From the NCBI GenBank assembly GCA_022606425.2, contig JAHDVF020000016.1, positions 3,192,501-3,256,500 on the forward strand: a stretch of 64,000 nucleotides of DNA, written 5' to 3'. Under the pieces are notes generated by a model. It had not been told where the DNA came from and did not search any database. It saw only the letters and a program-made list of their open reading frames with translations. Positions 28,741 through 54,690 of this stretch are shown here, in pieces (positions within the stretch are counted from its first letter, which is position 1; each line of letters begins with the position of its first letter). The stretch is from Lepidostoma basale (taxonomy: Eukaryota; Arthropoda; Insecta; Trichoptera; Lepidostomatidae). Both the position numbers and the translations under genes were made by a program.

Positions 28741-28930
28741 TTGCTTCTTTTCTCTTCTTTATGTTTCAACCAGTGAGCACCTTTGCAATGTCCAGCCTTC
28801 AATTTTATTATAATACCATTAATTCAATAGTCTATTGTTTTGGCCGAAACACTGTGATACTTCAACATTATTACTGTTAAAATTCAAAACACTGTTACAA
28901 TATCGCAATTTATTTTTATTCACTGAGAGT

Positions 28931-28982
28931 GTCACAACAGCTGTTTCGCTAACCGATGTTAGCATCATCAGTTTATTGTAAC
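28931..28982 (-). ncRNA. Hammerhead-like motif, core intact (GTT triplet)
   Basis: Minus strand: CTGATGA, stem II GCTAAC/GTTAGC with an ATCG loop (perfect 6 bp), GAAAC, AGCT in place of a stem III loop (the palindromic CAGCTG would favour dimers), and GTT as cleavage triplet. Distal stem I is GTTAC with GTGAC (one G-U), but AATAAA bulges on the 5' side, so stem I is not continuous. Confidence 0.65.
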
Positions 28983-28984
28983 AC

Positions 28985-29027
28985 CTGATGATGCCAACAT
29001 ACGCCAACATGAGGCAAAACAGCTGTC
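28985..29027 (+). ncRNA. Hammerhead-like motif, decayed partner
   Basis: CTGATGA (28985-28991) and AGCT-GTC (29021-29027) are intact. Stem II holds only GCC/GGC with a long, altered loop, and GAAAC has become AAAAC (29016-29020). Likely inactive. Confidence 0.6.
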
Positions 29028-29216
29028 GCGACACTCTCAGTGAATAAAAATGAATTTTGATATTATAGGTGCATTAAATTTGAACAGTAACCATTAATTT
29101 AAATTACTTGGTGTTAGTTTTAACTTTATTTATTTTTCTTATTGTTATTTATTAAATATGAGGTATTTTTTAGATTCATGTTTTCACTTATAACAATTAA
29201 ACGAAGGAAACGTTAT

Positions 29217-29501
29217 TAAATCAAATCAAATCAAATCAGTTTATTTACTCAAAAGACATTACAAACAGCATAAATGCTTAAGGCATCTATTGTGTACAGG
29301 TAAAATATTATATTATTGTATATTATAATTCAACATAATACCAGAAACGCATTAGAGATGGTTCGACATTAGGAAGACAAGATACTTTCTAAAGTCGAGA
29401 GTATTTGTCCCCTGAACGTACTTTCACTAATATGAAAGACGTCGATCTCCGAGGAGACCGCGTTCAGCAGACTAATTGCTCCTCCCACCGGTGTCACCAG
29501 A
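29217..29501 (-). mobile_element. LINE 3' end, family D
   Basis: Near copy of 24043-24330 in the same orientation: TCAAA-type tail at 29219-29237, UTR with AAGGCATCTATTGTGTACAGG, then the C-terminal codons (GATCTCCGAGGAG, CCACCGGTGTCACCAG). Truncated at 29501. Confidence 0.8.
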
Positions 29502-31142
29502 ATATGTACACAGTATATAAATAAACATGATGTTAAAGTAAACTTAGGTATGTATGTAATTCTAGTTAAATACTAAACGAAATTTCATTAATATCGCGAG
29601 TATATTGACAGCCCCTCGTAGGTTAAGTTATCAAGCGGTATTTGCCTTATCATTTCACAGTGCATTTGAAATGATTTATGATGCCGAATAGTTGGGCCGC
29701 TAATCTATGGGATCTCTATTTCATTAGGCCCAGATGGGGACGGAATACACAATGCTGCACGCCCGCTATACATGAGGAAACTAATATGAATGGGAGGTTC
29801 GGACTAAACATTTTTCTTAACAATAAGCACGATCCGAGATATGATAGGTTCGTGATGCTATTGGGAAAATTGTGGCATAAAAGAATAACAGCTTTCTTTC
29901 TAAAATATTTTCTTTCTCTCATAAATGTTAAATATATCAACATGGAACAAGATTCTTTGGCCTTATCTTATCGTCAGTTTCACGACAGTTCTAAATTTAA
30001 TAGTTACTATCGCTGTGGAGCGTTTTACCAGACTGAATATCTTCATTTAAAAGTTGAAAAATAAGTGAGATTTCGCATCTGTTTTTAATGTTTCTTAAAT
30101 TCAATATATGAAATGTTAATATTAATTTTATATTAAGTTTACGTCCAAAGTCGTGATTATTAATTATTTTCATTATTTAAATGGAAAATCACAATGACTT
30201 ACGGACATGAGTGTAATATTGTTGTTTTTCATAAAAAAAATTCTAGCGTATTACGCTCAATAGACTTAAAATGGGACTCAAATGACTGCAAAAGGTAGAG
30301 TAGAACATACCCTGCTGAAAGGTGCACCACCTTGCACGATAACAGGGTATCATAAAGTGGTCCTTGTAAGGGCAGTGTGATCACTGACCTTACCATCAAG
30401 GTCAAAGCAGACAGGGAAAGGGCGTATGGCGTATCCTGGGAGCCCCAAAACCGAAACCCACCAGCTCAGGGAAGGAAGCTTCCACAAATAAAAAAAAAAC
30501 GGAAAAGACAGTGAGAAACCACTACATTAACAATTCCGCCAACACGGCACTGTAAAAAGATGAAGAAGACTAACAATTAGATTCTGGAGGGATTTCATTC
30601 CATTCACGCTGCCGACCACTTAAATCTACGTGTAGCGAAACAACACTATAGTCGATCAGAGGAATAAATTATCCCATCAGGATTATCATTTCAATTATGT
30701 TCGAAATTCGATTAATTTAACTTTTGTCCCCGCCTGGCGAGAGGGCGCACCGCTGTGCGGCGGGTGCTCCATGCGAAACAATTTCAAGTCTAAATTCTTC
30801 CCTGATGGCTTTGGGGGGTTTTCTCTGAAAGTTATTCACCTTCTCTCCCCCAGGTGGCAGAGTCCTCGCACAATTAAGGGAGGGAATATCACCGGCGGGA
30901 GGTGAGGTGGACGGTTGGTTCCAGTCTTGTGAGTAAATGAAATTTAAATGCCGGCTATACCAGCAGCCTCCACTTTTAATACGTTCAAAATATTATTAAT
31001 TTTCAAATAATCAATTGTAATCAAATCAAATAACATTGGCTTTTATACATCGATCACATTAAATTCTTTCATTTTTATTTTTATTGGTTATTAAAATATA
31101 TTTCGACCATATAATTCATAACATGTATTTCGATATAAATTG
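29502..31142. other. No gene; a few GC-rich spots
   Basis: A plus-strand frame at 29678-30064 (128 codons) has no recognisable family and AT-rich codons. At 30850-30899 a CTCTCCCCCAG-GT...GGGAG-GTGAGG layout imitates a 49-nt exon, but it is too short to trust. 30290-30572 is GC-richer and ends with a poly-A (30488-30498), and might be a lone retroposon. Confidence 0.35.
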
Positions 31143-31198
31143 ATTTTAAGACCTGACGATGCTTACATCGGTTAGCGAAACAGCTGTCGCGACAAAAT
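31143..31198 (+). ncRNA. Hammerhead ribozyme-like, core intact
   Basis: CTGACGA (31153-31159), stem II GCTTAC/GTTAGC with an ATCG loop and one mispair-prone position, GAAAC (31077+ offset gives 31177-31181), AGCT, GTC (31186-31188). Flanks ATTTT (31143-31147) and AAAAT (31194-31198) pair across an internal loop AAGAC/GCGAC. An internal loop in stem I is common in natural type I hammerheads. The same ribozyme family as 28931-29027 and 36841-36906. Confidence 0.7.
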
Positions 31199-31217
31199 AT
31201 AATCAATTGTGATATAA

Positions 31218-31353
31218 CAACATTTTGAATGTATACAAATACTTGTAGACGAATACTGGATTTTATTTACCCATTGCGGGTTATTAATTGCTAACCCGCA
31301 ATAGGTAAAATCCAGTATTCGTCTACAAGTATTTGTGTACATTCAAAATGTTG
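31218..31353. repeat. 136-bp near-perfect hairpin
   Basis: Arms of about 64-68 bp (31218-31285 and about 31290-31353), read as complements with roughly 95 percent identity. They begin CAACATTTTGAATGTA and share ACTTGTAGACGAATACTGG. The loop is only a few bases. It starts 20 bp after the hammerhead at 31143-31198. Confidence 0.95.
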
Positions 31354-31429
31354 TAAAAAACAAAAACTGGTCCAAATTAAAAAAAAAATAGCATATAAAT
31401 TCATCAGTAGTATACATCTCTAATAGCAT

Positions 31430-31775
31430 ATACATCTCCAGGCGTTATCTAGCAATAATGGCGGTAGCCTTTCACATTGCGTTAATAAAAAAGATCTTCT
31501 GCTTAATGCTTAAATCCAATCTTCAGTGTGTAGTGTGTAGATTGAAACTACCATGTGAAGTTTGGTGTTACATATTAACATATATACAACTTCCAAAAAT
31601 TGTCAGACATGGTGGTCGTAAGAAGGGTGGAATGGGGAATGTTGTATTACATAAAGCGTGCGCTTAACCCAACCAATGACAGGTCATAAGTCCTGTAAAC
31701 ACTTCGATCACCATATTATGTTTACAATTTGCATATTTGTCTCTATTAAGATACAATTAATCCTTGAATTGTGAT
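31430..31775 (+). repeat. Repeat family P, plus-strand copy
   Basis: Shares two blocks with the minus-strand sequence at 37828-38225: GGCGGTAGCC with an AATGCG/CATTGCG area at 31440-31515, and the long block 31518-31775 (AACTTCCAAAAATTG, GGTGGAATGGGGAATGTTG, CTTAACCCAACCAATGACAG, GAGATACAATTAAT-like end). 53797-54032 matches the long block at about 90 percent and 46318-46412 matches its end. In the copy at 37.8 kb the block ends straight at a hammerhead, so this may be the body of a hammerhead-bearing element. Confidence 0.75.
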
Positions 31776-31940
31776 ATTTATAACAAAGTTTTTTTAATTA
31801 AACAGTTAACATGTGTTTCCTCATAAATAAATTGAAATTACTATTTGAATATATTGTTTCTTGAACAATGATGTAAAATCCATATTGAAAAATTCATGCG
31901 AATGAAAACGTCTGTTTTCTAGAAGTTTTATCATATTATA

Positions 31941-32033
31941 TGTGACTGACATGTTTCACCTGTATTAGGCATTGTCTAATGTAATAATCATTTGATGATG
32001 CTTTGGACAAGAGAAACATGTCAAGTCACATAA
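31941..32033. repeat. Palindrome with two decayed hammerheads
   Basis: Outer arms TATGTGACTGACATGTTTC and GAAACATGTCAAGTCACATA are complementary with one mismatch area. The plus motif (31992-32022) is TTGATGA, a weak stem II, GAAAC, AT, GTC. The minus motif (31948-31980) has GAAAC, AT, GTC but no good heptad. Same family as 54595-54690. Confidence 0.65.
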
Positions 32034-32189
32034 AATATAAAAAAACGTCTAGAAAATATAAGTTTTTATATTCTTTGAATTAGTTGCATTGATTTTTTGT
32101 GAAAAATTTAATTTAAATGTTGATAAATGAAAAAAAATATTTATACATCTTCTGGAAAAAGGTCTTAAGTTTAAGTTAAAGTTAATACT

Positions 32190-32221
32190 AACCGGTTTCG
32201 CTCCCGCCGGAGCTTCGTTAG
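32190..32221 (-). ncRNA. Hammerhead-like motif, one core change
   Basis: Minus strand: CTAACGA (expected CTGACGA), stem II GCTCC/GGAGC perfect with a GGCG loop, GAAAC, CG, GTT. Stem I does not pair well. Partner of 32244-32283 in a palindrome. Confidence 0.6.
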
Positions 32222-32243
32222 GAGAGAATAAAGTTTATTCTCT

Positions 32244-32283
32244 CACTCTGACGAAGCTCTGGCGGGTGCAAAACCGGTTGGTG
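32244..32283 (+). ncRNA. Hammerhead-like motif, one core change
   Basis: Stem I CACT/GGTG (one T-G), CTGACGA intact, stem II GCTCT/GGGTGC weakened, AAAAC in place of GAAAC, CG, GTT. A run with ATAAAGTGGTTAAAAG follows, also near the motif at 44040-44065. Together with 32190-32221 it makes a divergent pair 22 bp apart. Confidence 0.65.
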
Positions 32284-32829
32284 TTAACAAATAAAGTGGT
32301 TAAAAGTTTATTATTATTTTAATTAATAATGTCAGATCACAAACTAAGTGTTTCAAACGAATGTTTGGAAAAATCACTAATTGGCATACACGATCAATGT
32401 CATAATCATAATTTTAAATATTTGAAAATAAATGTTACTCATATGAAATAATATACGTGTTTGTGGTGTAATTTTAACTGGTAGAAACACCGAGAACGTT
32501 TGGCCAAGCGGTAGAGAGGGAAGCGGAAGAATCTGTTTTGTGTATTAAAAATTGATGTGACCACGCCATCATAAAGCGCGCGAGGAACGCAAACATCCGA
32601 AGCATGTTTCTATTCACGACCAGGAATGGAATATTAAAATAAGTCAGGTTCGCGCGGGAAGAGCGGAGAGCAAATCACATTTTAGAGGACAGCTGGCAAG
32701 TTATAGGCGCAAGTTGGCGGAGGATGGCGCCCTGCTTATGTAAGTTACGGACATGTTTAGATTTGGCGGCGAGATTATTCACGGCAAGTTTCATGCTGTT
32801 ACGTCACAAATGGCTTTCACTCTTGTTTA
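32284..32829. other. No gene; GC-richer tract 32480-32800
   Basis: TTTGGCCAAGCGGTAGAG near 32500 looks like a tRNA A box, but no B box follows. The rest has no frame or repeat match. Confidence 0.35.
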
Positions 32830-33215
32830 AACTAACTACCATCACGCCGACACTCCCAAGGGGTAGGCAGAAATAATGGACTGACGCAATGTTATTTCCT
32901 GACATACTTCTCTCGTTTCTCAACATTCATACTTCGTGTCATTCGCGCACGTCGATTTCTCCGACTCCTCACGTGGCCGACTTTCAATATTTGATGGTGC
33001 CACGTTTTCCTCGGTTTTCTTTTTTTTCTCGTTCCATTAACATCGTTAAGATATATTTTCTTTACCATTATTTATTCAATCATAACTTCCACGTATCCAA
33101 ATCATATTAATGATCCTTTCATTACTTTGTTCATAACAAAATGAAAATAAATTTGCATTGCATTCACTTCTTATATTTTCATTCGAAACTCCATCATACA
33201 CAGATTTTCCACCGA
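32830..33215 (-). pseudogene. LINE RT C-terminus, family A copy 7
   Basis: CTAACTACCATCACGCCG start (3' end), then codons in reverse for CMTRCMNVEE-like, RSRRNRR-like, GRPRKTW-like and HMERM-like blocks. Frames are broken repeatedly and ~20 bp are missing near 32995. Truncated near 33215. Confidence 0.7.
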
Positions 33216-34727
33216 TTCATCTTGAGATCACACACTTATTTATGGCTGATAACTAAAGATTAAAAAGTTATGAAAGATCAATCTTAATTCTCTCTACAAG
33301 TAGATGGCAGTGAGCTGCCAAAACCTTTTGAAGACACAAATATTAGTAGATTTGAATGAAATATGCATTTTAAAAAGATTTTTTTACATAATTTTTAGGT
33401 CTCAAGTGTCAAGGCAACTAAGTCCACCAGGCGATCCGCAGTGCCTCCTCAAGGGCAACAAAGGCACTCCGTTATGTGCAGCATGGATTGCTCCATAGAA
33501 GCCCAGAATCCACCTTCCAACAATGTTCCCAACAGACGTAAGAGTAATAGCCACAAGAGCTGAACCTCTGTTAGCCAGAAGAGGTTTTGATTAAAAAAAA
33601 ATTACGCAAGCCGGGTTTCTGGGCTTCTACGGGATTACCGCTACTAGATGCAGAGTGTCTCATCTCGCCATGTTATCACTGAATCTAACGACACGCAATC
33701 GGTTGAGGCAGCAGATGAAACTTAAAGAAAGTTGGTGTAAAATACTGCGCATTTCCAGAAGATAATTCACGATTGTCCAAACCATGTGGCGCAGCTTGGA
33801 AGGCAGAAGACTTATTTAAATCAATGGCCAACGAAGAGAGTGTTTACATCGCAATATTTGTACCGGCTTAATTAATTCGATTTCGCATGATTTCTATGAA
33901 AGTAGCTCTCGGCCCAGCCGGTTTATTGTAGTCTTTCGGTGTCTCCTACCGAGGCGGGTTAATGAATAGAAATTTGAAATCCGTTACCACATTCTTTGTA
34001 ACAAAGGGGGGACATAACTTCCCCGAAATTGATTATGTTCCTGATAAAATTTATAACAATCACCTTGTCAAATTATAAGATTTCGCAAAATGGACGCACT
34101 TTGTGCTGTTACTGGAAGTTACAAGGATTTTCTTAATTTATTACGTAATTTAATGAAATATTAATTTCGCTCCGTTTATAAGAAACTGTAGAATATATAA
34201 CGGTTAAGAGCTCAAATGGAAGTACCTTCAACATTTTGGTTTTTACCTTTAATATTGTAAGCTCATGCTCAAGCTGTATGCACACTATAGCTTTTCTACT
34301 GATATTGATATCAAGCAACTGCTTCATTTTATTAATTTAAAATTCAAAACATTGGCAAATAAAATATATTCAAGTTGTTGGCACATTTTATGTATAATAT
34401 ATTCCATATTATTTGTATTATTCATTTATACTTATTTTAATACTAATTTTAAGAACACTCACTATTACTTAATTGTTGCTGGCAGCAAGCCTGGCGAAAA
34501 GTAGTTCTTAAAAACATCGTTTTATTTCATTATTCCTTTTATTAACGTTTAAACATGTGTGTTTTTTATAGTAATATTTTTTGTCGTTTTGTTTTAATCA
34601 TAATATTATTTAATTCATTTTTAACACGCATAATATATTAATATTTATAAAATCACTACATATTCTTATAAATTTTAGTCATGAAAATAAAACTATTGAG
34701 ATAGATATTGAACATTTTGATCATTGT
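33216..34727. other. No gene; weak hammerhead relic at 33297-33330
   Basis: AGATGGCAG-TGAG-CTGCC-AAAAC at 33305-33325 is a worn copy of the GGCAGC-type motif. A short inverted repeat TAGAAGCCCAGA (33497-33508) pairs with TTCTGGGCTTCTA (33617-33629). Otherwise nothing. Confidence 0.4.
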
Positions 34728-34935
34728 TTAACTAATTAACTAATCACTACACCGTATCTCCGAAAGGGTAGGCAGAAATAATGGACCACCAAATTATTCT
34801 TTCCGGACATACTTCTCTCGTTCCCTCAACTTTAATACATCGTATCACGTATGTCAATTTCTTTGACTCCTGACGCGGCCAATTTTTCATATTTGATTGA
34901 TTTGATCGTGCTATGTTTTCTTTCTCCTTTCTTTA
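34728..34935 (-). pseudogene. LINE 3' end, family A copy 8
   Basis: CTAATTAACTAATCACTACACC tail side followed by the usual 3' segment with GGTAGGCAGAAATAATGGAC. Decays after the TTTGATCGTGCTATGTTTTC word near 34920. Confidence 0.65.
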
Positions 34936-36130: not shown

Positions 36131-36132
36131 AA

Positions 36133-36172
36133 TACCAACCAGTTTCGCTCCCGCCGGAGCTTCGTCAGGGTA
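36133..36172 (-). ncRNA. Hammerhead ribozyme, core and stems intact (GTT)
   Basis: Minus strand from 36172: stem I TACC pairs perfectly with GGTA (36133-36136), CTGACGA, stem II GCTCC/GGAGC with a GGCG loop (perfect 5 bp), GAAAC, TG, and GTT as the cleavage triplet. GUU fits the NUH rule but is slower than GUC in known hammerheads. Same family as 32190-32283 and 45394-45435. Confidence 0.8.
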
Positions 36173-36254
36173 CCAGAATATAAAAAAAGAGTTATAAAAT
36201 GTATGGGAGAAAGTGTGCACGAGGACAAATAGTATGGTAGAACGGTGAGTCATG

Positions 36255-36290: not shown

Positions 36291-36295
36291 ACATT

Positions 36296-36580
36296 CAAGG
36301 TAGTTTAGAAAGCTGTTCAAATACAGCAAACTTGGAGTCCATCTTAGGCTACAATCAATTCCACCAACACAAATTTTACTCTCTCTGACAATGGACAGAG
36401 AGTTCTCGATTTACATAATAAATATAATCAATGAAACTTTGGTACAATTCTCTCTATTTTTTAAGAAAGATTAAATATTAAATAATCCTTGTTGTGAATT
36501 TTGCAATGCCTTTATGTATAAATTATCATTCCTAGAATCCATTTACAGTAAACAAATTATCGCGATTCCCGAGAATTTCT
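36296..36580 (+). repeat. Direct repeat, left copy
   Basis: About 285 bp, repeated at 37316-37588 in the same orientation with about 88 percent identity (shared runs GGAGTCCATCTTAGGCTACA, TGAAACTTTGGTACAATT, CATTCCTAGAATCCATT). The two copies bracket roughly 735 bp that contain a hairpin, a decayed hammerhead and a palindrome, so they may be terminal repeats of an element. Confidence 0.8.
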
Positions 36581-36625
36581 AATTAATATTCTGGAACGGA
36601 CAGGGGAGTTCATTTTATTTTTTTA

Positions 36626-36712
36626 ATTTGGGGGAATATTTGAAATTATTTAAAATGGGGAACATGTCTAAAATGTTCCCAATTTTACGTAATTTTAAAT
36701 ATTCCCCCAAAT
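36626..36712. repeat. 87-bp hairpin
   Basis: ATTTGGGGGAATATTT (36626-36641) and its exact complement (36697-36712), with further pairing inside (AATGGGGAACAT with ATGTTCCCAATT-like). Small loop. Not coding. Confidence 0.85.
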
Positions 36713-36837
36713 AACAAATTTTTTATTAGATCCATTGTTCTGGTGAAAACACTTTGATATTTCAATATTATTAACTGTTTAAAATAAAATAAAAACTCTG
36801 ATATAAATATCACAATTTGATGTTATCATCATCGGGA

Positions 36838-36906
36838 CTTACAATCAACTGATATTGGTTATATAACTGATATTATATAACAATGGTTAGCGAAACAGCT
36901 GTCACG
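36838..36906 (+). ncRNA. Decayed hammerhead of the CAGCTG family
   Basis: GGTTAGC, GAAAC, AGCT, GTC (36886-36903) and the following ACGACAAAATA are as in 31170-31195. The 5' half is scrambled (two CTGATAT-like words, an insertion), so stem II is lost. Confidence 0.55.
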
Positions 36907-37125
36907 ACAAAATAAAATTATTATTATTATAATTAAATAACTATTAAGTAATTTGATGATATGAAATTTGTTATAACGATTATAGCAGCTTAGGGTACTT
37001 TTCATCTCTAAAAACAATTATTTGTTTATTAATAGTATTGTATCATTTGAATGTTGCACATAGTTGTAAGTTGTACATATGTTTCTTCTAAGATATATTC
37101 GCCGTCACTTTGTGTTGTGGATTCA

Positions 37126-37345
37126 CATTCAAATAACTTTTTGAAAACATTGTATTTTCACAACAATTTTTTGCATTCCTCACTAACAATTTTCGGGACA
37201 CAAATGTCCTTTCTAAGTGTAGAAATATTTTACACTGAGGAAAATTTTTACTCCGAGGAAGGACATCTGTGCCCAGAAGCATGTTTGTGAAAAGTGCAAA
37301 AAGGTTTTGTCAAAATACAATGTTTTCAAGAAGCTATTCAAATAC
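37126..37345. repeat. Palindrome with two worn hammerhead-like motifs
   Basis: Arms 37126-37175 and 37292-37345 are complementary with gaps (AAAACATTGTATTTT with AAAATACAATGTTTT). In the centre, GGACATCTGTGCCC-AGAAGCATGTTTG (37256-37290, written in two parts) and its inverted partner at 37186-37212 resemble the hammerhead at 46513-46559, but lack intact CUGANGA and GAAAC. Confidence 0.55.
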
Positions 37346-37588
37346 AACCAGATTGGAGTCCATCTTAGGCTACAATCGATTCCTCCAACACAAGTTTTAC
37401 TCTCTCTGACAACGGACATATAGTAAATAGAATAAATGAAACTTTGGTACAATTTTCTCTACTTTTAAGAAAAATTAAATATTAAATAATCCTTGATGTG
37501 AATTTTGCAATGCCTATATGTGTAAATTATCATTCCTAGAATCCATTAACCGTAAACAAATTATCGCAGTTTCCGAGAAACCATTTAC
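37316..37588 (+). repeat. Direct repeat, right copy
   Basis: See 36296-36580. This copy lacks about 15 bp near 37425 relative to the left one. Its left end overlaps the right arm of the palindrome at 37126-37345. Confidence 0.8.
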
Positions 37589-37778
37589 ATATTTGAAAAT
37601 CTTCATAATGTGTTAACCGTCATTACATTAATATTCATTAGCGTTTCAGGTGAAATGAGATTAGTTAACGATTCAGAGTGGATTAAATATTTACATATTT
37701 ATATTTCGTCTACGCACTTCAAAAATATGAACACATATCTATCAAGGAATATTTTTCGGGGTGAAACCGTGTTCCCTC

Positions 37779-37821
37779 CACCAACGTTTCGGAGGCCCTT
37801 GCGGCCTCCATCATCAGGGTG
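37779..37821 (-). ncRNA. Hammerhead ribozyme, core intact, long stem II
   Basis: Minus strand from 37821: stem I CACC pairs with GGTG (37779-37782), CTGATGA, stem II GGAGGCC/GGCCTCC closed by a GCAA-type loop (7-8 bp, strong), GAAAC, then GTT directly. Stem III is reduced to AACGTT, which could only form between two molecules. Immediately 5' of it on the same strand is a copy of repeat family P, ending GAGATACAATAAAAATT. Confidence 0.75.
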
Positions 37822-37827
37822 TTAAAT

Positions 37828-38225
37828 TTTTATTGTATCTCAATAGAGACGAAGAAACAAACTGGAAACTGAACATGGATGATCAAGGTGTTTACAGGAC
37901 TTATGACCTGTCATTGGTTGGGTTAAGCGCACGCTTTATGTAATTACAACATTCCCCATTCCACCATTGTTATTATGATCATGCAAGATACATTTTTGGA
38001 AGTTGTATATATACTCCAAATTCATACTTATTTTCACGTGTCAGTTCCAGCTAGCCATCTATGTAGATTTGATTGTACTAATTAATTGTTAAGATTAATC
38101 TTATACAATCCACCTACCAGCGGCATCTGTGAAGAATGATTGTTTAGCATTTAGCCAACTACTTTATTAACACAATGCGAAGAGGCTACCGCCTCCTAGC
38201 GCACTGTATAGAAGTCGCCTGGAGT
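37828..38225 (-). repeat. Repeat family P, minus-strand copy ending in a hammerhead
   Basis: Minus-strand order: GGCGGTAGCC block (about 38185-38205), a variable part, then the long block with ACTTCCAAAAATG, GGTGGAATGGGGAATGTTG, CTTAACCCAACCAATGACAG and the GAGATACAATA end at 37828. The hammerhead at 37779-37821 follows. It ties the family to the ribozyme. Confidence 0.7.
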
Positions 38226-38435
38226 AAACACTCCTATTTTATACGCCAAAGAATTGAAGATATCCTCCCCATAGAGGCTCGTCAAGTAAGAACTTAAATT
38301 TCCACGGTTAACATATATAGGAATATTTACGGTTAACATATATATTTAATAAAGTTCCACGGTTAACATATATATTTAATAAAGTAGTTGGCTAAATGCT
38401 AAACAATCATTCTTCGTGGAAATTTAAGTTCTTAC
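38131..38435. repeat. Two interlocking long inverted repeats
   Basis: Pair 1: a 39-bp arm at 38131-38169 (GAAGAATGATTGTTTAGC start) with its complement at 38377-38415. Pair 2: GTAAGAACTTAAATTTCCACG (38286-38306, 21 bp) with its complement at 38415-38435. Between them ACGGTTAACATATATA recurs three times (about 38308, 38331, 38359). The pairs cannot both form fully in one strand, so alternative folds are possible. Confidence 0.9.
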
Positions 38436-42660: not shown

Positions 42661-43479
42661 AAAGTATTTGTATATGGTTTTAAAATATTGTATATATATT
42701 ATATATTTATTGAATGTAAGGGATAAAAACATTAAACTCAAAACCCAAATAAAATATTCAACTACCGGGAGAAAATGAAAAAGATTTGCAGAGAGTAGAA
42801 AAATAGCATTCGTTTTACAAATTAATCTCACTCTGGGCGTTCGGAGTAGAGCTTTTATAGTATAAATCAGGACGACAATGTTTGAAAAAAAGTATCGAAG
42901 GGCAATACTTATTCCAGCTACGTGAGATACCTGGAGACGCCCCGCCCTAGCGTTCCCTTTATTATCACGGCGGACGGAGTTAAAGCAACTGTATTACATT
43001 TCTTGAATTACTTACGCATATTAAAAAAAAAATACTTCCCCTTTATTTTTCAGAAGGCTTTACGGGGAAATGAACTACGCATTTTTAATTATGTAAATTA
43101 AATTATTTTATTACTTTGTTTCGTGAAAACGTTTATTTTTTTAATTATTGCTAAAGGGACAAATACAGAACGTAGATATTTTTTAAGAAAATAAAGTAAA
43201 TAAGTTCACAAAATAATTAATTCTCAGTAGAAGTGACAGAATATTCATTATTTATTTTCTACTGTATTCACCAATTAAGTCTGTCTCACAAAAGAGGATA
43301 TTTCTCACCAAACTATTGTGTTATCATATTTCACATTAATTTTTGAACACTTAATTTAATAAACCATTTAACACTTGTAAATATGAATTTAAACCACTTT
43401 ATTCTTAAATAATGAAAAAAAAAAATGTACAAAATTTATTTATTATTACATATTTAGTGTGCTTCCGCTTGTGTTTAAC
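42661..43479. other. No gene recognised
   Basis: AT-rich. Nothing besides the start (about 43385) of the inverted repeat around the hammerheads at 43480-43880. Confidence 0.4.
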
Positions 43480-43515
43480 GCCGACCGGTTTCGGCAGCTT
43501 GCTGCCATCTTCTAG
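43480..43515 (-). ncRNA. Hammerhead-like motif (GGCAG type)
   Basis: Minus strand: CTAGAAGA (one extra base against CTGAAGA), stem II GGCAG/CTGCC with a CAAG loop (perfect), GAAAC, CG, GTC. Flanked by sequence complementary to that around 43845-43880, so the pair sits in a long inverted repeat with a ~330-bp spacer. Confidence 0.6.
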
Positions 43516-43844
43516 TACGTACACCAAATTTAATTTAATTTATACAACAAATGCAAGTGGTGGGGGTTAAGAAAATTATAAAAGACTCTTTCATGTAATC
43601 CATAAAAACATATATATTTTTAAATAAAGTAAAATAGATTTTTCCATGTAATGAATGCGGAATCATTTCCAATAAATTTACATTATACGGAATCATTTAA
43701 AAAAATAGTCACATATGTTAATGCTTTTAATTATATGGAAAACAACAACACTTACAACTTAATAACAGTAATGGATTATTTAGAACCAGTATTTTTTTTA
43801 ACCACCACCACTACATATTTATAATATAATTTTGATGTAGGTAT

Positions 43845-43880
43845 CAGAAGATGGCAGCAAGCTGCCGAAACCGGTCGACG
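43845..43880 (+). ncRNA. Hammerhead-like motif (GGCAG type), U4 changed
   Basis: CAGAAGA (43845-43851; U to A at the second core position), stem II GGCAG/CTGCC, GAAAC (43867-43871), CG, GTC (43874-43876). The downstream arm TCAAACACAAGCGGAAGCAC mirrors 43453-43472. Confidence 0.6.
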
Positions 43881-44016
43881 TCAAACACAAGCGGAAGCAC
43901 ACAAAATATATAATAATAAATAGTATAATTTTTCTGGTTTTAATTTTTTAAAATGAGCTTCCACCAAGAAATTTCAATCAAAAATATAAATCACTTTATT
44001 CTTACCAATAACCAAC

Positions 44017-44065
44017 GATTTCGCTCCCGCCGGAGCATCGTTGACGAAGGAGCGAAACCAGAATG
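44017..44065. repeat. Palindrome with two worn hammerheads (GCTCC type)
   Basis: The minus motif keeps GATGCTCCGGCGGGAGC (stem II perfect), then GAAAT, GTT. The plus motif keeps GACGAAGGAGCGAAACC with the stem II loop lost. Arms AATCACTTTATTCTTA (43992-44007) and TAAAGAATAAAGTGGTTT (44076-44093) are complementary. Confidence 0.6.
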
Positions 44066-44129
44066 TTGTTGTAAAGAATAAAGTGGTTTAAATACAAATT
44101 TACAAGCATTTTATTATATTTGTAATATA

Positions 44130-46317: not shown

Positions 46318-46412
46318 TCAGGTCATAAGTCCTGTAAACGCCTCAACCACCATATTCTGTTTCCAAAATAATTTACACCTTCGTCTCTATTGAGATACAA
46401 TTAATCTTTAAA
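46318..46412 (+). repeat. Repeat family P, end fragment
   Basis: CAGGTCATAAGTCCTGTAAA through GAGATACAATTAATC, matching 31679-31770 and 53947-54030. Only the last 95 bp of the block. Confidence 0.7.
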
Positions 46413-46422
46413 TTATTTTTTT

Positions 46423-46620
46423 TCTTCTATATTCGCCATGACTTTGTGTTGTGTATTCACATTAGAACAACTTGTTGATAACTTTTTATTATCACAATTT
46501 AATTTCATCATTTATACACAGAAGAAGGGAAGTCTGTTTTCCCGAAACATGTCTGTATACGATGTAAGTAAGTGTTGTGATAATACAAGTTGTTCTATTA
46601 TATAATAATTTAAATTATTA
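46423..46620. repeat. Palindrome enclosing one hammerhead
   Basis: Left arm AGAACAACTTGT...ATTATCACAA (about 46465-46499) and right arm TTGTGATAATACAAGTTGTTCT (46572-46593, in two halves) are complementary. The hammerhead 46513-46559 is in the loop. The palindrome is preceded by the TTTCTTCTATATTCGCC word. Confidence 0.75.
46513..46559 (+). ncRNA. Hammerhead-like motif, 6-bp stem I, U4 changed
   Basis: Stem I TATACA/TGTATA (perfect 6 bp), CAGAAGA (46519-46525; one core change), stem II GGGAA/TTTCCC with a 6-nt loop, GAAAC (46544-46548), AT, GTC (46551-46553). The core change probably weakens or kills cleavage; all pairings are intact. Confidence 0.65.
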
Positions 46621-46744: not shown

Positions 46745-46800
46745 TAATATGTATCACAAAAGAAGGACTGGTTGTCCGAAACGAAACATGTCTATGTAAT
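46745..46800 (+). ncRNA. Worn hammerhead with duplicated GAAAC
   Basis: TATCA at the start and GGAC/GTCC stem II match 48261-48301, but the heptad is CAAAAGA and GAAAC occurs twice in tandem (GAAACGAAAC). Then AT, GTC. The stem I right arm is changed. Confidence 0.55.
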
Positions 46801-46859
46801 TTTTTTAATGTGTGTGTTATATAGAAAGTATATAAAAAATAAAAAAAGAATAAGAGAAT

Positions 46860-48130
46860 ATTTGTAATTCTGGAATAATATATTTTTTAAACTTTGTAAC
46901 ACTCCAAATTATTTTAAAAAAATTCAAAAATGAATCCACGACACAAAGTAGTGGTGAATATAAAAGACATTATTCATATTCTACGTTTCAATGTCACGTT
47001 GTTTTTTATGAATCAAAACTTTTTTTTTCCACCTTTACGTTAATTTATGACGAAGATGTAAAACCCTTTTTTTACAATACATTTTGAGAAAAGTAAACTC
47101 AAAAATAGAAAAAAAAAATAGCATTTGAATTCAGAACGAATCGTCTGAATGGAATTCCACAGTGTAAACGCCCAAGTTAATAAAATATATCCAAATTATT
47201 TTATTTTATTACAATTATCGTCGTGAAACTAATTCTTCTTAAAGTGCCCTGTCAGGTCCCCCCAACGTTAGCGATCACTCTGGTAAACTCTTCCCTATCC
47301 TGCGCTGTCCGGAATAGCTAACTAATTCACGATGATTAATTCGATGTCTTTAGTATAATAAGAAAAGATGCACTGTATGTTCTGTACATCTATTTCATCT
47401 AAAGCTTGACTATAATGCTACAAGGAGCAAGGTGGCGCGGAAATATTTCATTTAAGACATATTTTCATCATTGTCACCGTCTAATATATTGTTTTCATGA
47501 ATGTTAACCCTGCAAGTTCATTTTATCCATATGATACCAATATTTTATACAAATAAGTATAAAAAGACATCTTATATGTGGGTCTCCGTTTTCGAGAAAA
47601 TTCGAAAAACGGAAGATTTCATTTAATAAGGTAGAATTTTGGTGAAAATGTTATGCATATAGCCAATATCTGGCATCATGGTCGGAAAATACTCACACTG
47701 GAACTACGCGCAGCAGCCCAAATGTTTGTACCAACGGAAGCCAAACAAAGCAATAGCGATCCTCTATTATATAATATTTGGTGGGGAAACTTTCATCTCG
47801 GAAAGCTGAAATGCTGAAAGAAAATGGTCGTTTATAGTATTTGTCATTTTCTTCTTTCACGGTTTTGTTTCAAAAAAGTACTGAGAATTGTGATGTCTGT
47901 AGTCGCAAGATTCGCGATAAAGGCGGCAATAAATATGAACTATTTGAATCAGAATCTAGAGAATTTCACCTAGTTGACAATTACGCCGTCTATACTATAT
48001 TTTAATATCTTTCATAATTTTCCCTATTTTCTTGACATTAAAAAAGCAGTTATTCTGATGCAAAAAAAATATGTGTCTTTTTCTTTTTTATATATTTTGT
48101 ATATACAACACTAACTTAAAAAAAATTACA
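46860..48130. other. No gene; LINE scrap at 47233-47322 listed separately
   Basis: AT-rich. GGAATTCCACAGTGTAAACG at 47151-47170 matches the end of the hammerhead module at 50783. Nothing else. Confidence 0.4.
47233..47322 (-). pseudogene. LINE 3' end, family B
   Basis: Minus strand: LFRTAQDREEFTRVIANVGG, aligned to LFRAAQDRDGFAEVIANVGG at 17308-17367, with a stop and a TTCTTC-type tail on the plus strand. Only 30 codons. Confidence 0.7.
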
Positions 48131-48171
48131 TATCAGACATGTTTCGGACAACCGGTCCCTCTTCACTGATA
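48131..48171 (-). ncRNA. Hammerhead-like motif, C3 changed (pair, left)
   Basis: Minus strand: stem I TATCA/TGATA (perfect 5 bp), GTGAAGA (expected CTGAAGA), stem II GGAC/GTCC with a CGGTT loop, GAAAC, AT, GTC. Its partner at 48261-48301 keeps this base but has lost another. Confidence 0.7.
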
Positions 48172-48260
48172 CATATTATAAAGATACGTATTCAAAATAT
48201 TATAAAATTGTTTATAAATAATATCAGTTTTGACAGATTTAATATTTTGAATATAATATG

Positions 48261-48301
48261 TATCACTGAATAAGGACCGGTTGTCCGAAACATGTCTGAT
48301 A
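48261..48301 (+). ncRNA. Hammerhead-like motif, G8 changed (pair, right)
   Basis: Stem I TATCA/TGATA (perfect), CTGAATA (expected CTGAAGA), stem II GGAC/GTCC, GAAAC, AT, GTC. Compared with the left copy, the two differ in the heptad at one base each from CTGAAGA, so their common ancestor had the full core. Confidence 0.7.
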
Positions 48302-49786
48302 TGTAATTAAAAAAAAAAGTAAGTGATGTACCTGTATGTACAAATTATATAAAAAAGAAAAAGGAAATAAAACATCTACAACACAAAGTATGGCGAACAT
48401 AGAAGAAATAATATTATAATTTTATGTGAAAAAATAGAGGTGCACCTTTTTAATTCAAATTTCATTTGATTTTTCAATTAGTTTGTACTCCATTTCACAA
48501 GATTAAAAATACTACTTTTTTTTTATTTAAAAAAATGTTTTGTTTAATATATTCATCATTTTTATAGCAGGCAATCATGGTGCTGCAATATAATAATAAA
48601 TTTATGGCGAACTACCTTCACGGCGGATGTTATTATATTGTATAAAGAGAAAACAAGTCCCACGAGTGCCGAGTACATAGTTGTTAAACTAAATTCATAC
48701 AAAGTGTTTGTACATTCTACATATCTAGCTTCGTGTTTAGATGTAAACACACGGCAAACACTTACTTATTATATGAAGTATAAAAAGTGATCGTTCTAGC
48801 AGGGGAAAGTAATTCAAAAGTAGCAATATTCTAGGTAAAGGAAAATTTCAGAATACCGTTCAACAAGAGCCGAGAAAACTGAATACAAGAACAAACAGCG
48901 GCTCTGCCATTCAGGAATTAATGTTCAGACCAACACAACCCTTAGTTTAGTCATGGGGTGAAACAGATGGGCGGCAGATCAAATGATTATTAGTCCTACT
49001 CTCCCAACCCACTCGCCTCGCCTCCCTTACGGCTCCTGTATCAGAGATTCTTTAACTTTTGGAACTTTCAAAACCCCCAACACTTTGTAATGTTTATTAT
49101 ATTTCAATCCGCATGTTTTCTTTCTCACTGTATTTTGACGATATCAAACAAAAAATGTACGAAAATAATATATTTTTATTACCGAAATATCAAAAATTTG
49201 TTTAATTTTTTTATGACAAACACATTTTTTATTTTAATAATATTAATAATCTTTATGAAAATTCACTTTAAGGTTTAAGAAACATCATTTAACAATATTT
49301 GATAACTTAAAGTAATATAAATAAGAATGAAACTCCGAAGATTAAACTTTTCGGTGCTAGCAGTTTTCGCGAAACCCTGGTTGAATATCGATGGTCACAC
49401 TACACAGTTTTATCATAACAAGCCCTGCCTCACCTTCCTGCGCAGACTTATTTAAATAAAGGTAGGTCCAAGTTCAAATCTGCGATAAGTCCGCAAATTA
49501 AAAACCCACGAAATGCCGACATTTCGTGGAATCGGCCGCTGACCATGTTTAAAGAGCTCTAATATAATCAGCATTTTTAAAACAGATTTTTGTTGGGTAT
49601 TTCATTGAAGTTTGAAAATATAAGATTCGTAAATGTTTTATAATTCAAATATTTGAAATATCTTTGATGTTAAAGCGGCAAAATAAACCCAAAATTATGA
49701 AGCGGGTTTTCTAATAAAAAATCCAGTAAAAGATGGTAACAAAAAGCATAAAAATAACGAATGAGATGTTCCGTTAATGAAAACTA
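48302..49786. other. No gene recognised
   Basis: Complement of the TTTCTTCTATGTTCGCC word at 48378-48412. A GC-richer stretch at 48850-49060 has no recognisable coding frame. Confidence 0.4.
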
Positions 49787-49840
49787 ATAAATATCTTCTA
49801 TATTATAAATATCCTCTATATTATAAATATCCTCTATATT
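49787..49840 (+). repeat. 18-bp tandem repeat, 3 copies
   Basis: Unit ATAAATATCCTCTATATT, three copies with one change, ending at 49840. Confidence 0.9.
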
Positions 49841-49869
49841 ATAATACATGTTTTAGAAGATAATAGCGA

Positions 49870-49910
49870 GGAAGGATAAGAACCATCCGAAACATGTCTC
49901 TGAACCATGA
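49870..49910 (+). ncRNA. Worn hammerhead-like motif
   Basis: GCGAGGA, GGAT-AAGAACC-ATCC, GAAAC, AT, GTC. The last three parts and stem II are right, but the heptad differs at two bases and stem I is not visible. Confidence 0.4.
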
Positions 49911-50554
49911 AATAAAATGTCAGAAAAAACCATAGTGTGTGGCAGCCATAGCTGTTAACACTATGCCGCGAAGGTTATCAAGTATGATTTATGTAAGGTT
50001 AAAAAAATAAATAAAAACAATGATGACTGTATAGAACTAACATGGGAGCGATTTCTAATCGAAGAATATATGTAACATATAAAGTAAATACCCGTTCAAT
50101 CAAATTTTATTCCACGATTATGTTTTTGGCAAATATTTAGCTATTTAAGAGCAAACATTAAAGTTTATTTGTATATATCAGTGTAATTGGATATTATTTA
50201 GAGTACTGCTGCTTAGAGAGAATATTTTATAATAATAGAGATTCCAATTTAGAATATTTGCTTTATTTTTTATTTACATGAACTTTGTTTATCTATTAAG
50301 TAACGAAACGAACTTTAACCAACCGCAATGTTAATTTCAGAACTTGGTTAGAATGGCAATGGATCGGAATAATTTAAGCTGCGCGTATTACGAGAGTGCA
50401 TAATAAATTATTGTTTTCCAACTAATCTGCGCTCACTAATAGATTATACACTTTACTACAATACAAGGGTTCATTTTCATACCTATAATGAACCCAAAAA
50501 TGTTATTTGTTTATACAATTAATTAAAAATATATATCTTAACGATATAAACAGA
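49911..50554. other. No gene recognised
   Basis: AT-rich, nothing found. Confidence 0.4.
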
Positions 50555-50935
50555 ACTAGAAATAAAAACAAGACCGAGGAAAACGTGGCACGATAAAATA
50601 AATCAAACATTGTATGTCGGCCACGTAAGGAGTCGGAGAAATCAATGTGCGTCATGACACGATGTATGAATATACTTATATCTTGGATGGAGGTATCCTC
50701 CGAAACATGTCGTGTTTTTAATATTTTTTAATAAATACTGGATTAAACAAAGTTATTTTCAATTTCCTAAGTATATTACTAGGGAATTCCACAGTGTTAA
50801 TGCCTTAGCATTCAATAAGTGGATGTATGAATGTTGAGGAAGCGAGAGAACAGTGTGTCAGGAAAGAACAGTGAAGGGGTCCATTATTTCTGCCTACCCC
50901 TTCGGAGAGACGGAGTAATGGTTAATTAGTTAGTT
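50555..50935 (+). pseudogene. LINE 3' end, family A copy 11, split by an insertion
   Basis: Left part 50555-50671 carries GRPRKTWHDKINQT-like and RSRRNQCAS-like codons. Right part 50822-50935 carries CMNVEEAREQC-like codons, GGTCCATTATTTCTGCCTAC, GGAGTAATGG and the (GTTA)n tail. A 150-bp insertion with an 11-bp duplication separates them (see 50661-50832). Confidence 0.8.
50661..50832 (+). mobile_element. 150-bp hammerhead module with 11-bp TSD
   Basis: GATGTATGAAT occurs at 50661-50671 and again at 50822-50832. Uninterrupted family A copies have it once here. The 150 bp between (50672-50821) carry the hammerhead parts GGAGG-TAT-CCTCC, GAAAC, AT, GTC (50689-50711) with an altered heptad (TCTTGGA), then AT-rich sequence, the words TTCCTAAGTATATTACTA and GGAATTCCACAGTGTTAATG, and end near ATTCAATAAGTG. 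A 56505-56585 copy shares the right half. It is a small non-autonomous mobile unit; the variable-length duplication fits retrotransposition rather than mariner (TA) or hAT (8 bp). Confidence 0.8.
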
Positions 50936-51104
50936 AGTGAAAAACGGTTCTCAATAACAGAAAACGTTTTTTTTTTACTTGAGCAAATTAACGTTCTAAA
51001 AGTCATCCCAAGATCAACAACCATTTGACCTATTTACTATATTCGAAAAGTCCTTTAAGCAACTTACAAAAAGACACATTACGTAAGATTATCAACCGGC
51101 GATA

Positions 51105-51560
51105 TTTGATAACAACAACAAACGCTGTTTCCCGCAAGGGTAGGCAAAGATAATGGACCGCAACATTACTCTATCCTGATACACCTCTCTAGATTCCTTC
51201 GCATCCATACAACGAATCATACACGCACATCGATTATTTCGAATTCTTACTAAGCCGACCTTTAAAATTTGATTAATATGTTCATGCCATGTTTTCCTCG
51301 ACTCTGTACTCCATTCATACTATCTTAACCAATCCATCCATGCGTTCCATATATGTCAAAACCAACGCAGTAATCCTGTAATATTTTTGTTCAAATTAAT
51401 TTATTTTGTTCTACATTCCTTTCTAATATGGATTTGTAATTCTGTCGTACATCATTTTATCATCTATACGTTTTAGGGATCTAATATATACTGTATTTAT
51501 TCTGATGTCTCTTCCATTCACAAGCATTTGAACTAGAATTCCTTTGTGTTATTTTATTTC
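51105..51560 (-). pseudogene. LINE RT C-terminus, family A copy 12
   Basis: Starts AACAACAACAAACGCTGTTTC (GTT-type tail, as in copy 9), then the reversed CMRRC-like, GRPRK-like and INTV-like codons to about 51560. Heavily decayed. Confidence 0.7.
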
Positions 51561-53796
51561 ACATATATTCGTTAAGTTACTTAGTATCTGATTTAATTGA
51601 TAAAGTTTCAGAGTGAAAAGCAGAAAATTTATTGACTTATTTATATATTTTATAATTATTGAATATGGGTCAAAAAACATTGTGTATCTCGAATAATGAC
51701 CAAAGTATGCAAGCGCCACATGTGCAACACTGGCTCCCCCGATGGACCAACCACAGAGCATAATGATGCCGCGTATTTGTTCCCATTCTCTGATCTCATT
51801 GTAATAATATTTAACATCACAATGGCGTACTCGAAGTTACCTCGAATACCAAAAGCCAAAATAATTATTAACATTAGTTCTAGTTGCCAAATGCACCATG
51901 AAATACTCGACCCCTTTTATCTCGCCTGCGTGTTTTGACGGTAGTCGCATTTGCTAAGTTTGTTCTGGCTTAACGAGACTGAAATTTGGTTAATGGCTTA
52001 ATTTTCGGAAAACGAATTTTGATTTCGAAATACGACCGATAAACGTTATATTTTGGGGACAGCAAATATATTGTTTTTTAGTTCTTTACAAATAGGTTTC
52101 TTGAATTAGAATTTTTTTACAAATTAAATTATACTGACGCTCCGAATGCAAAGGATTTGACTTAGCGTGAGATAAAATTAAACTCTACTTTGATTGTATA
52201 CGAGTATGAATGTTTTATTAAAAAAATGTTTCAATGTTTAGTAAAGATGATAAGAACATATTTCACCCCGATCCACTATTAAATAATTCTTCTTCTTCTT
52301 TCTTCTTAAGTCGTATTTCTCATGATCAATGATCAATTAATTCGATAAACTATATAACACGGCTCGCTTTGCGCTCCTGTCGCCTGTCAGTCTCTTGATA
52401 GCCGTCCTTGTATTAGATTTCTATCTACTTTGGCCATTATTATGATACTTTCGAGGTTGTCCTGATGACTCCGGACTATGTTATGTATATAAAAATTCTC
52501 TATTTTAGAATATTTACATGTCGAATATTCGCGATCTTCTAATGATGAGAATCTAATCTATCAAAAAGTAAAACTATAAATTTTGAGTAAAATTGTAGTG
52601 CGTGTAAGCCGAGTTGGTAGCAATATGTTTTTTTTGGGATCTTGAGGAAATTCCGTGTAAGTCGTTTTTCGAGAAAGACGAGTAACACGGATTTTCCTAA
52701 GATCTCAAAGAACATAATAAAATATGGTTCATTTAACAAAAATCCTCAACGGTTACCTCTTGGATAAATAATAAATGAAATTTTATAATACATTTCTTTT
52801 TAAATTAAAACACTGTTTTTTCCCATTTTCAGTTTATTTTTATCGACATGTTTCGAATATAATAATAATAATAATAAATTGGATAATTTATAAAGCGCCA
52901 TTTTTATGAATTGCTCATCTCAAAGGCGCTCATCTCGAAGGCTTTACACATTCAAGTATTTAACTACATTAAAAAATCATTATAATGGATTTCCACAGTG
53001 TTATTCACTTAAGTACGTCCAAAATAAAGATAAAATACTTATCTATGAATGGGCAAAATTTGTGAACGAAAGATGTATTGGGGAGATTAAAATGAACATA
53101 AACATAAATATGAGGTTCAGTAGTATTAAACCACAGAATCCATAAATCCAGAATCCATCTGAAAACCGCTAGTTTATCTGTTTGCCTCACGTATATAAAG
53201 AATGTCGCCAATGTAGAACTAATTATACCCTCCTCCCGGGCAGGCCTCCCCCCACCTCGCCACCCTCTTCTTCTCTGTAACGAGGTAACGAGCGATTGAT
53301 TGGCAGCAAAATTGTCGAATAATTGAGGTAAAAACAACGCGCTCCGATATCCAATATGCAATTATCGAAAGTAAATAATTAACGCAATTAATATTCAGTT
53401 TGGGCTTGATCCCCAACACACTGATGAATAAATTACAGAACACCACTATATTACACACTGTTCTTACTTTGTATAACATAATAATGTTCATTAGTGAAAA
53501 TCACTCTGATATGTAATGTCTTGGTTTAGGTATGTTAAGAAAATTATATGGTGCTTTGGAACTGAGCCTCACATTTTATCATCTTTAATTCGACAAAGTC
53601 ACCAAGGTCATGAATTAACCATATTACTGAAAAAGTCTATCAAAAAAGTAGCACAATGCTACGAATACGAGTAGATGCTTCACGTGAAGTTTTGTTCTTA
53701 CACTTTTTATTCTGCTAAATTATTGTTTAATATTATTAGGTAAGAGCAAATTAATAAAATTAAGCAGGTCAAAAAAATAATTGACAATTAAAGCGC
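51561..53796. other. No firm gene; one dubious frame at 51656-51874
   Basis: On the minus strand two overlapping frames (51549-51761 and 51656-51874) give hydrophobic, GW-containing peptides that look better than random. I cannot assign them or find splice sites. GGATTTCCACAGTGTTATTC at 52987-53006 is a worn copy of the module end. A GC-rich spot at 53225-53280 is C-rich without a frame of known type. Confidence 0.35.
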
Positions 53797-54032
53797 TAGT
53801 GTGTAGATTGAAACTAACATGTGAAGTTTGGTGTTACAGATTAACATACATACAACTTCCAAAAATTTGTCTGACATGGTGGTCATAAGAAAGGTGGAAT
53901 GGGGAATGTTGTGTTATATAAAGCGTGAGCTTAACCCAACCAATGACAGGTCATAAGTTCTGTAAACACCTCGATCACCATATTCTGTTCCCAATTTGCA
54001 TCTTCGTCTCTTTTGAGATACAATTAATCCAA
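53797..54032 (+). repeat. Repeat family P, plus-strand copy
   Basis: Matches 31518-31775 at about 90 percent: AGTGTGTAGATTGAAACTA, GTGAAGTTTGGTGTTACA, GGTGGAATGGGGAATGTTGT, CTTAACCCAACCAATGACAG, GAGATACAATTAATCC. No hammerhead follows directly. Confidence 0.8.
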
Positions 54033-54560
54033 TAATTGACAACATTGAGCTGAGCTTACTGTGGAAGTAAACGTAGGCGCTTGAAGAGATTTACATCTTC
54101 ACCTTTTCATGAAATTTGATAATTTATACCAAATCAAATACTGAATACTGAATTACTGAATTGAAACTGATTGAAATCAAATATGGAAAAATGTTCAATT
54201 GTAAATAAAAAACTTGTTTTTCACCACTTGAGTATTGACTGACACTTATTCAAGTGGTGAAAAACAAGTGTTTTATTTACAATTTAATCATGTCCTACCA
54301 CAAAGTGAATGCCGAAACAATAAATAACATGGAAAAAATGTTTATTTGATGTTCGAGTAAAACAAGCATCGTCAGCGCCAGTAACCTTGCCTTCGCTGAA
54401 ATCCATCTCAAGTTATTGTTTTTTTATTCTTTAAAACAACAGTTGTTTTTATCAGACTGCTTAACTTTCTCAAATTTAACTGTGATCACGATTACAGATA
54501 TATTTATTTATTGTTTCTTGAACAGTGATGTAAAACTTCACTTAAATTATTAACACATAT
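54033..54560. other. No gene; short palindrome
   Basis: CTTGTTTTTCACCACTTGA (54210-54228) and TCAAGTGGTGAAAAACAAG (54250-54268) form a near-perfect palindrome around 21 bp. No ribozyme core at its centre. Confidence 0.5.
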
Positions 54561-54594
54561 GTTTTCTAGAAGTTTTATTACAATGTATTTTAAT

Positions 54595-54690
54595 GACGTG
54601 TTTCGCCTGTCTAAGGCATTATCAAATGACATTTGAAAAACGTTTGACAAAGCATTAGACAGGCAAACTACGTCTTTCACGTAAATTGCA
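54595..54690. repeat. Palindrome with two decayed hammerheads
   Basis: The minus motif (54595-54625) has TTGATAA, stem II GCCT/AGGC, GAAAC, AC, GTC. The plus motif (about 54640-54690) has TTTGACAAAG, AGACAGGC, AAACTACGTC and is worse. Outer arms TTCTAGAAGTTTTATTACAAT and ATTGCAATAAAACTTCTAGAA-like (54565-54585; 54695-54714) are complementary. Confidence 0.6.

Follow-up and report, generated by a model that had tools for sequence, protein, structure and literature searches.

Why should hammerhead-like ribozyme motifs stand as mirror-image pairs at the centres of palindromes? The question is raised by a 64,000-nucleotide stretch of the genome of the trichopteran insect Lepidostoma basale (GenBank assembly GCA_022606425.2, contig JAHDVF020000016.1, positions 3,192,501 to 3,256,500 of the forward strand), hereafter the window, in which positions are counted from the first letter. 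An earlier note had listed eight such loci and offered several explanations for them. The evidence presented here suggests, with a probability of about 0.8, that the divergent pairs are short and decayed insertions of Penelope-like elements (PLEs), each with two pseudo-long terminal repeat (pLTR) ends placed head to head. We infer PLE membership from the ends, the arrangement and the motif.

Divergent pairs and their constant orientation

All eight loci listed earlier proved to be inverted repeats with one hammerhead-like motif per arm, the left motif on the minus strand and the right one on the plus strand, and a ninth divergent pair, H1, absent from that list, was found at 57871-57986 (Table 1). 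In a hand inventory of 28 motifs, twelve neighbouring pairs lie less than 400 bp apart. The nine that join motifs of the same family, namely the eight listed loci and H1, are all divergent, and none of the three that join different families is (two convergent, one tandem). One more motif, at 49866, was found later and stands outside this inventory. As for the palindromes, 16 inverted repeats scoring at least 38 occur in the window and none in any of five second-order Markov shuffles, and therefore they are not due to chance. Half of these 16 are hammerhead pairs (A1, B1, C1, F1, D1, E1, B2 and H1); the C3 pair (44017-44065) falls below the score threshold.

Unpaired motifs, which the earlier note did not mention, also occur, and about one third of the motifs stand alone. 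Among 11 motifs examined outside the pairs, none shows an inverted partner within 700 nt that scores above the 95% background value (36), though other evidence gives three of them, E3, G1L and B3L, part of an inverted tail. At 36731-36918 there is a possible further divergent pair of family A, with both motifs broken, whose left tail matches the left flank of A1 and whose right end matches A2; it was kept out of all counts.

The mirror-image arrangement is real. Most likely it is also largely expected, since PLEs are already known to land head to head. The note held that a constant orientation is not expected from random insertion, but independent insertion is the wrong null, as a pair probably arrives in one insertion. 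A circular dimer, proposed as a replication intermediate, is not supported: head-to-tail copies would be expected from it, yet none of the nine same-family neighbour pairs is tandem. This count also speaks against non-autonomous retrozymes with type I hammerheads, spread via small RNA circles, which form tandem repeats and in which a frame with a start codon (see below) would be unexpected. Type I hammerhead repeats have been reported from the genomes of many invertebrates, among them insects (PMC7229834), but we regard such an origin as very improbable for these pairs. The template switch suggested alongside the circular dimer is possible. In best agreement with the data are the inverted terminal repeats of Penelope-type units that the note also named, given the minimal type I hammerheads, the unequal arms, one likely target-site duplication and a tail that enters the start codon. 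The portions of the published literature consulted hold no account of divergent hammerhead pairs.

The motifs as minimal hammerheads

No Rfam hammerhead was found over the window at gathering score, nor over 28800-54800 at E<=10, where the 17 matches, 14 of them to microRNA families, are all below gathering scores. This tells against our reading; minimal hammerhead variants might well escape Rfam. Despite this negative result, the hammerhead fold is supported, because stem II covaries. The motifs differ among families, and what is common to them is a CUGANGA-like core and GAAA, together with stem II and a stem III of very few pairs. When 21 of the 28 motifs are aligned (B2R, B3L, C3L, C3R, E2, F1L and F1R were left out as decayed), 94.0% of the 84 cells of the four stem II pairs are paired, and the covariation score is 0.942, against 0.227 when shuffled (0 of 500 shuffles reach it) and 0.079-0.325 when slid. 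Under a fixed rule applied to 27 motifs (without C3R), 98 of 108 cells pair, the maximum in 3000 between-family deals being 89. Two measures of stem II stay within the range of the shuffles, namely both-side pair changes (498/500) and further pair types (297/500). Counted by eye, there are three stem II pairs in which both bases differ between the two arms of the same locus (A1, B1 and H1). A count of 44 out of 44 paired cells came from hand-picked representatives and is not relied on.

A descriptor scan returned six matches at a score of at least 8, three of them within pairs, where ten Markov shuffles lead one to expect 0.2. A covariance model built from the same 21 motifs gave 24 matches in the window at E<=0.03, of which 21 are its own training set; the other three lie at 49866-49903 (+, E 7.5e-4), 44008-44044 (-, E 0.008) and 46757-46792 (+, E 0.012). 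Both members reach E<=0.03 in five of the eight listed pairs (A1, B1, C1, D1 and E1) and in H1, all of them training motifs. At 37126-37345 (E 1.1) and at 54595-54690 the left motif alone is listed, and at 44017-44065 the left motif has E 0.008 and the right E 8.7. A weak match to the model (E 0.1) at 33298-33334 looks family D-like by eye. In exact 14-mer scans of IMG/VR the hammerhead descriptor occurred in none of 283 among the matches listed, so IMG/VR gives no outside comparator.

Judging from their sequences, most motifs appear to be decayed minimal hammerheads, that is, fossils. The two core blocks, CUGANGA and GAAA, scored by eye, are both intact in six of the 28 motifs: one of the 18 paired motifs (A1L) and five of the ten others (A2, C2, U1, V1 and G1L). 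In E1 the core is broken at C3 in one arm and at G8 in the other, and in PAc, the Poseidon element of Anolis carolinensis, single changes at either position abolish cleavage (PMC11167929). Since two intact cores occur in no pair, the earlier idea of sense/antisense regulation is weak. It is hardly credible, for the same reason and given the single paired motif with both blocks kept, that the divergent pair is itself selected, with the transcript of each strand comprising a ribozyme and a controlling antisense copy, even if the symmetry would permit such control.

Also by eye, stem I is present in V1, C2 and E1 and was not seen in A1 or D1. The stem III loop is often self-complementary, reading ACAGCTGT in family A, ACATGT in B1, a decayed B3-like motif, E1, E3, G2 and the motif at 49866, ACCGGT in C1 and D1, and ACTAGT in V1; it is not self-complementary in H, U, F, B2, C2, C4 and G1L.

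Arm ends and a likely target-site duplication

According to the reading that we favour, each pair would be one insertion in which two pLTR ends are joined head to head, each pLTR carrying a minimal type I hammerhead made of core, stem II and a 2-bp stem III whose loop is often self-complementary. The outer end on one side would lie about 44 nt inside the reading frame of the element (the tail), and the other near the start codon. The motifs would face the centre because both copies extend inward beyond the hammerhead, and the constant orientation would thus follow from the structure of the insertion. Published accounts describe much of this. Penelope pLTRs include the first 12 codons, a 31-bp tail may occur on one of two inverted pLTRs, target-site duplications of 8-10 bp are found, and head-to-head is the commonest arrangement (PMC3846280); inverted pLTRs and 3' extensions are general marks of PLEs (PMC8969392), in which minimal type I hammerheads have been reported (PMC7761336, PMC6155905).

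With strict alignment scoring, eight of ten structures have a second arm that stops 0-20 nt short of the first arm's start codon, the gaps being 2 nt in A1, 18 in B1, 7 in B2, 20 in B3, 3 in E1 (whose start position, an ATA codon, was assigned by hand), 2 in E3, 5 in F1 and 2 in the hairpin at 54194. The arm matches of B3 and E3 are weak, with scores of 21-32. Independently of arm scoring, A1 is flanked on both sides by a 10-bp direct repeat (Table 1), so that the long end is placed at a distance of 44 nt from the start codon and the short end immediately ahead of that codon. A flanking repeat like this has a chance of 0.0044 per pair, or about 0.035 over the eight pairs examined. It is likely a target-site duplication, and on this basis the pair was probably inserted as a single unit.

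Short reading frames next to the motifs

The start codons belong to short frames, spanning no more than about 14 codons beside the motifs, which we take to be the start of the PLE protein. The pattern M-x-x-H-[KS]-V-x-A has 10 matches in the window, against 7 across 30 shuffles combined. Five of them lie downstream of a motif on the same strand (A1L, C1R, C2, F1L and E2), three in arms that have lost their motif (46460, 19529 and 54290), and two (47149 and 56544) near no motif; the peptides are given in Table 1. Family B has frames at the equivalent place, VKFYITVQETINKYI in B2 and MEIYIIVKETIY in B3, the likeness of which to the frames of other families was judged by eye alone; the ATG of B1 reads MDFTSLFKKQYI, in a different frame from those of B2 and B3.

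Points against the PLE reading

Besides Rfam, several results weigh against a PLE origin. First, the inequality of the arms depends on alignment scoring, which lowers our confidence. Even at strict scoring, C1 ends 40 nt short and G1 3 nt inside. At looser scoring the second arms of A1, B1 and B2 overrun the start codon by 11, 41 and 37 nt, respectively, and five of the ten structures fit; at the loosest scoring all second arms run far past it, and none of the ten does. The idea that one arm is always long and the other short is weakened accordingly, as it fails for some structures at looser scoring. Second, the other seven of the eight pairs examined share flanking words of at most 8 nt, which are not convincing. 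Third, the frame pattern was composed after the frames had been seen, and the 14 rows, at 10 places, returned by a looser first pattern are not clearly above chance, since 20 shuffles yielded 1-12 rows each. No frame was seen at D1, H1 or C3, and G1 has an apparent frame on both arms. Fourth, Pfam found no GIY-YIG domain in any of the 14 window frames of at least 120 amino acids, all of which were scanned, and its one reverse transcriptase match among them (24183-25172) is below cut-off. As all copies are short, this last negative bears on autonomy more than on origin.

How the second copy may be made

Two routes to the second copy have to be weighed. In the one we favour, at somewhat less than even odds, both strands of the cut target would serve as primers for reverse transcription (RT), with two start sites on the RNA, which would fix the outer ends at the RT start sites and leave the inner junctions free. 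PAc, a PLE protein, cuts both strands of its target and extends each of them, and two RT start sites enclose its tail (PMC11167929). A possible, if more doubtful, alternative is that one complementary DNA of the same element, having arrived at the pLTR head, folds back on itself to prime the second copy, the resulting hairpin being resolved to a palindrome; this was proposed for Penelope of Adineta vaga from palindromes at inverted junctions (PMC3846280). The centres divide between the two. The long unpaired centres of D1 (211 nt) and E1 (71 nt) suit priming from two strands and tell against self-priming, and the short ones, A1 with 13 nt and C1, where a near-perfect palindrome runs through the centre, suit self-priming. 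A self-primed first-strand copy should moreover reach the far end, yet at strict scoring the second arm goes no further than the vicinity of the start codon, an objection that falls for B1 and B2 at loose scoring; and self-priming on sense RNA would give tail-to-tail rather than head-to-head copies (PMC3846280). Priming from two strands, taken alone, leaves the combination of one long and one short arm unexplained, and no strand difference was observed in PLE target copying (PMC11167929).

Family B allows the arms of related loci to be compared. Arm identity within loci is 0.815 and 0.797 (0.900 in B3, over 20 positions), between loci it is 0.723-0.863, and by side it is 0.825 for left with left and 0.723 for right with right, that is, no closer than for the arms within a locus. 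These identities give no sign of a palindrome copied as a mobile unit, and they neither separate self-priming from two-strand priming nor show how many times a palindrome arose. The former point counts against long-hairpin miniature inverted-repeat transposable elements, miniature DNA transposons which would have gained hammerhead-like sequence. Such an origin would account for short palindromes with several copies per family and for the direct repeat of A1, but related frames are out of place in these elements, as are arms that are unequal (at strict scoring only), and we consider it quite improbable.

An unlikely elaboration of priming from two strands concerns the stem III loop, which might act as a tether pairing two PLE RNAs through ACAGCUGU, ACAUGU, ACCGGU or ACUAGU, depending on the family, with a dimeric PLE protein bringing the two to a single cut site and copying one RNA per target strand from different start sites. 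If so, what a head-to-head pair records would be an RNA dimer, and pairing, more than cleavage, would be the reason for keeping the hammerhead.

Coordinates and neighbouring repeats

Table 1. Divergent pairs, single motifs and short frames in the window. Signs in brackets give the strand; L and R in the text denote left and right motifs.
Feature	Span	Motifs (strand)	Remarks
Pair A1 (family A)	28825-29089	28932-28971 (-), 28985-29031 (+)	long arm left; frame from 28868 (-), MLKYHSVSAKTID
Left 10-bp direct repeat of A1	28815-28824		ACCATTAATT; likely target-site duplication
Right 10-bp direct repeat of A1	29090-29099		ACCATTAATT; likely target-site duplication
Pair B1 (family B)	31843-32072	31943-31979 (-), 31991-32028 (+)	left-arm frame from 31883 (-)
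Pair C1 (family C)	32181-32361	32185-32221 (-), 32248-32284 (+)	right-arm frame from 32329 (+), MSDHKLSVSNECLE; left arm shortened
Pair F1 (family F), decayed	37076-37343	37180-37217 (-), 37251-37290 (+)	left-arm frame from 37126 (-), VNPQHKVTANIS
Pair D1 (family D)	43437-43922	43479-43515 (-), 43843-43880 (+)	long unpaired centre; no frame found
Pair C3 (family C)	43984-44120	44008-44043 (-), 44040-44061 (+)	right motif without half of stem II
Pair E1 (family E)	48077-48412	48131-48166 (-), 48266-48301 (+)	long arm right
Pair B2 (family B)	54505-54729	54590-54626 (-), 54643-54679 (+)	left-arm frame from 54541 (-)
Pair H1	57866-57991	57871-57912 (-), 57945-57986 (+)	ninth divergent pair
B3	55858-56000	left, 55888-55924 (-)	right arm is tail only, frame from 55965 (+)
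E3	46421-46600	right, 46519-46557 (+)	left arm is tail only, frame from 46460 (-), VNTQHKVMANIEE; weak arm match
Motif-free hairpin	54194-54330		right arm continues into frame from 54290 (+), MSYHKVNAETINN
A2	31153-31192	(+)	core blocks intact; no partner found
C2	36132-36168	(-)	core blocks intact; frame from 36070 (-), MSHHKLSASYGS; no partner found
V1	3553-3589	(+)	core blocks intact; no partner found
U1	37776-37817	(-)	motif at 3' end of a repeat of about 185 nt; no partner found
Motif 49866	49866-49903	(+)	found by covariance model only; no partner found
Frame	46930		MNPRHKVVVNIKDI
Frames	19529, 47149		MEFHSVNA
Frame	56544		MDFHSVNA

The window is AT-rich, with a GC content of 31-40% in 4-kb steps, and holds other repeats. 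The family U repeat of about 185 nt has four copies (31588-31760, 37818-38004, 53854-54027 and 46319-46411), and in the inventory a motif stands at the 3' end of the copy at 37818-38004 only. Copies of a 250-nt repeat with 85% identity, which by eye may contain a coding frame, lie at 36310-36575 and at 37331-37579, beginning at the edge of F1. Just downstream of A2, a near-perfect 49-nt hairpin (31217-31354; 98%, 40 nt between the arms) is matched by plant and insect microRNA families of Rfam below gathering scores. A perfect 40-nt inverted repeat at 38131-38415, with arms 205 nt apart, has no hammerhead motif listed, and another at 36620-36718, about 46 nt long around a centre of 7 nt, is without a model match. 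Two Mos1-like transposase genes, each broken into two frames, lie at 18163-19110 and 27265-28397. Transposase or Mos1-type helix-turn-helix domains exceed the Pfam cut-off at 18163-18630, 27265-27858 and 27783-28397, and a transposase match at 18631-19110 is just under it.

Comparison with known systems

PLE integration is poorly understood, and the window would hold nine short head-to-head insertions, with seven motif families in all, in which outer ends and inner junctions are preserved in compact form. A genome-wide study of such copies could help decide between self-priming and priming from two strands, and could bear on why PLEs retain minimal hammerheads although hammerhead mutants had no effect on insertion in vitro (PMC11167929).

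The closest likeness in arrangement is to the inverted pLTRs of Penelope in Adineta vaga (PMC3846280). These mostly come with an open reading frame (ORF) and have longer pLTRs, and hammerheads go unmentioned in the partial text, whereas the pairs described here have no ORF beyond about 14 codons and carry hammerheads near the junction. With PAc (PMC11167929) they would share a hammerhead at the junction of pLTR and ORF, and two RT start sites that flank the tail. However, the ORF of PAc opens ahead of the cut site, at stem II, and the start codon here lies downstream of the motif; the main RT start of PAc is 111-118 nt into the ORF, and the sole well-defined end here is 44 nt into the frame; and PAc is described in tandem copies, whereas the pairs are inverted. 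Small PLE hammerheads that cleave as dimers, as cited via PMC7761336, resemble the present motifs in their very short helix III and in their dispersed, PLE-linked copies; they are described as dispersed or tandem, with no mention of divergent pairs in the available excerpt. Metazoan retrozymes (PMC7229834), finally, also have type I hammerheads in repeats, but these are tandem and give rise to RNA circles, whereas those of L. basale form inverted pairs with a reading frame.

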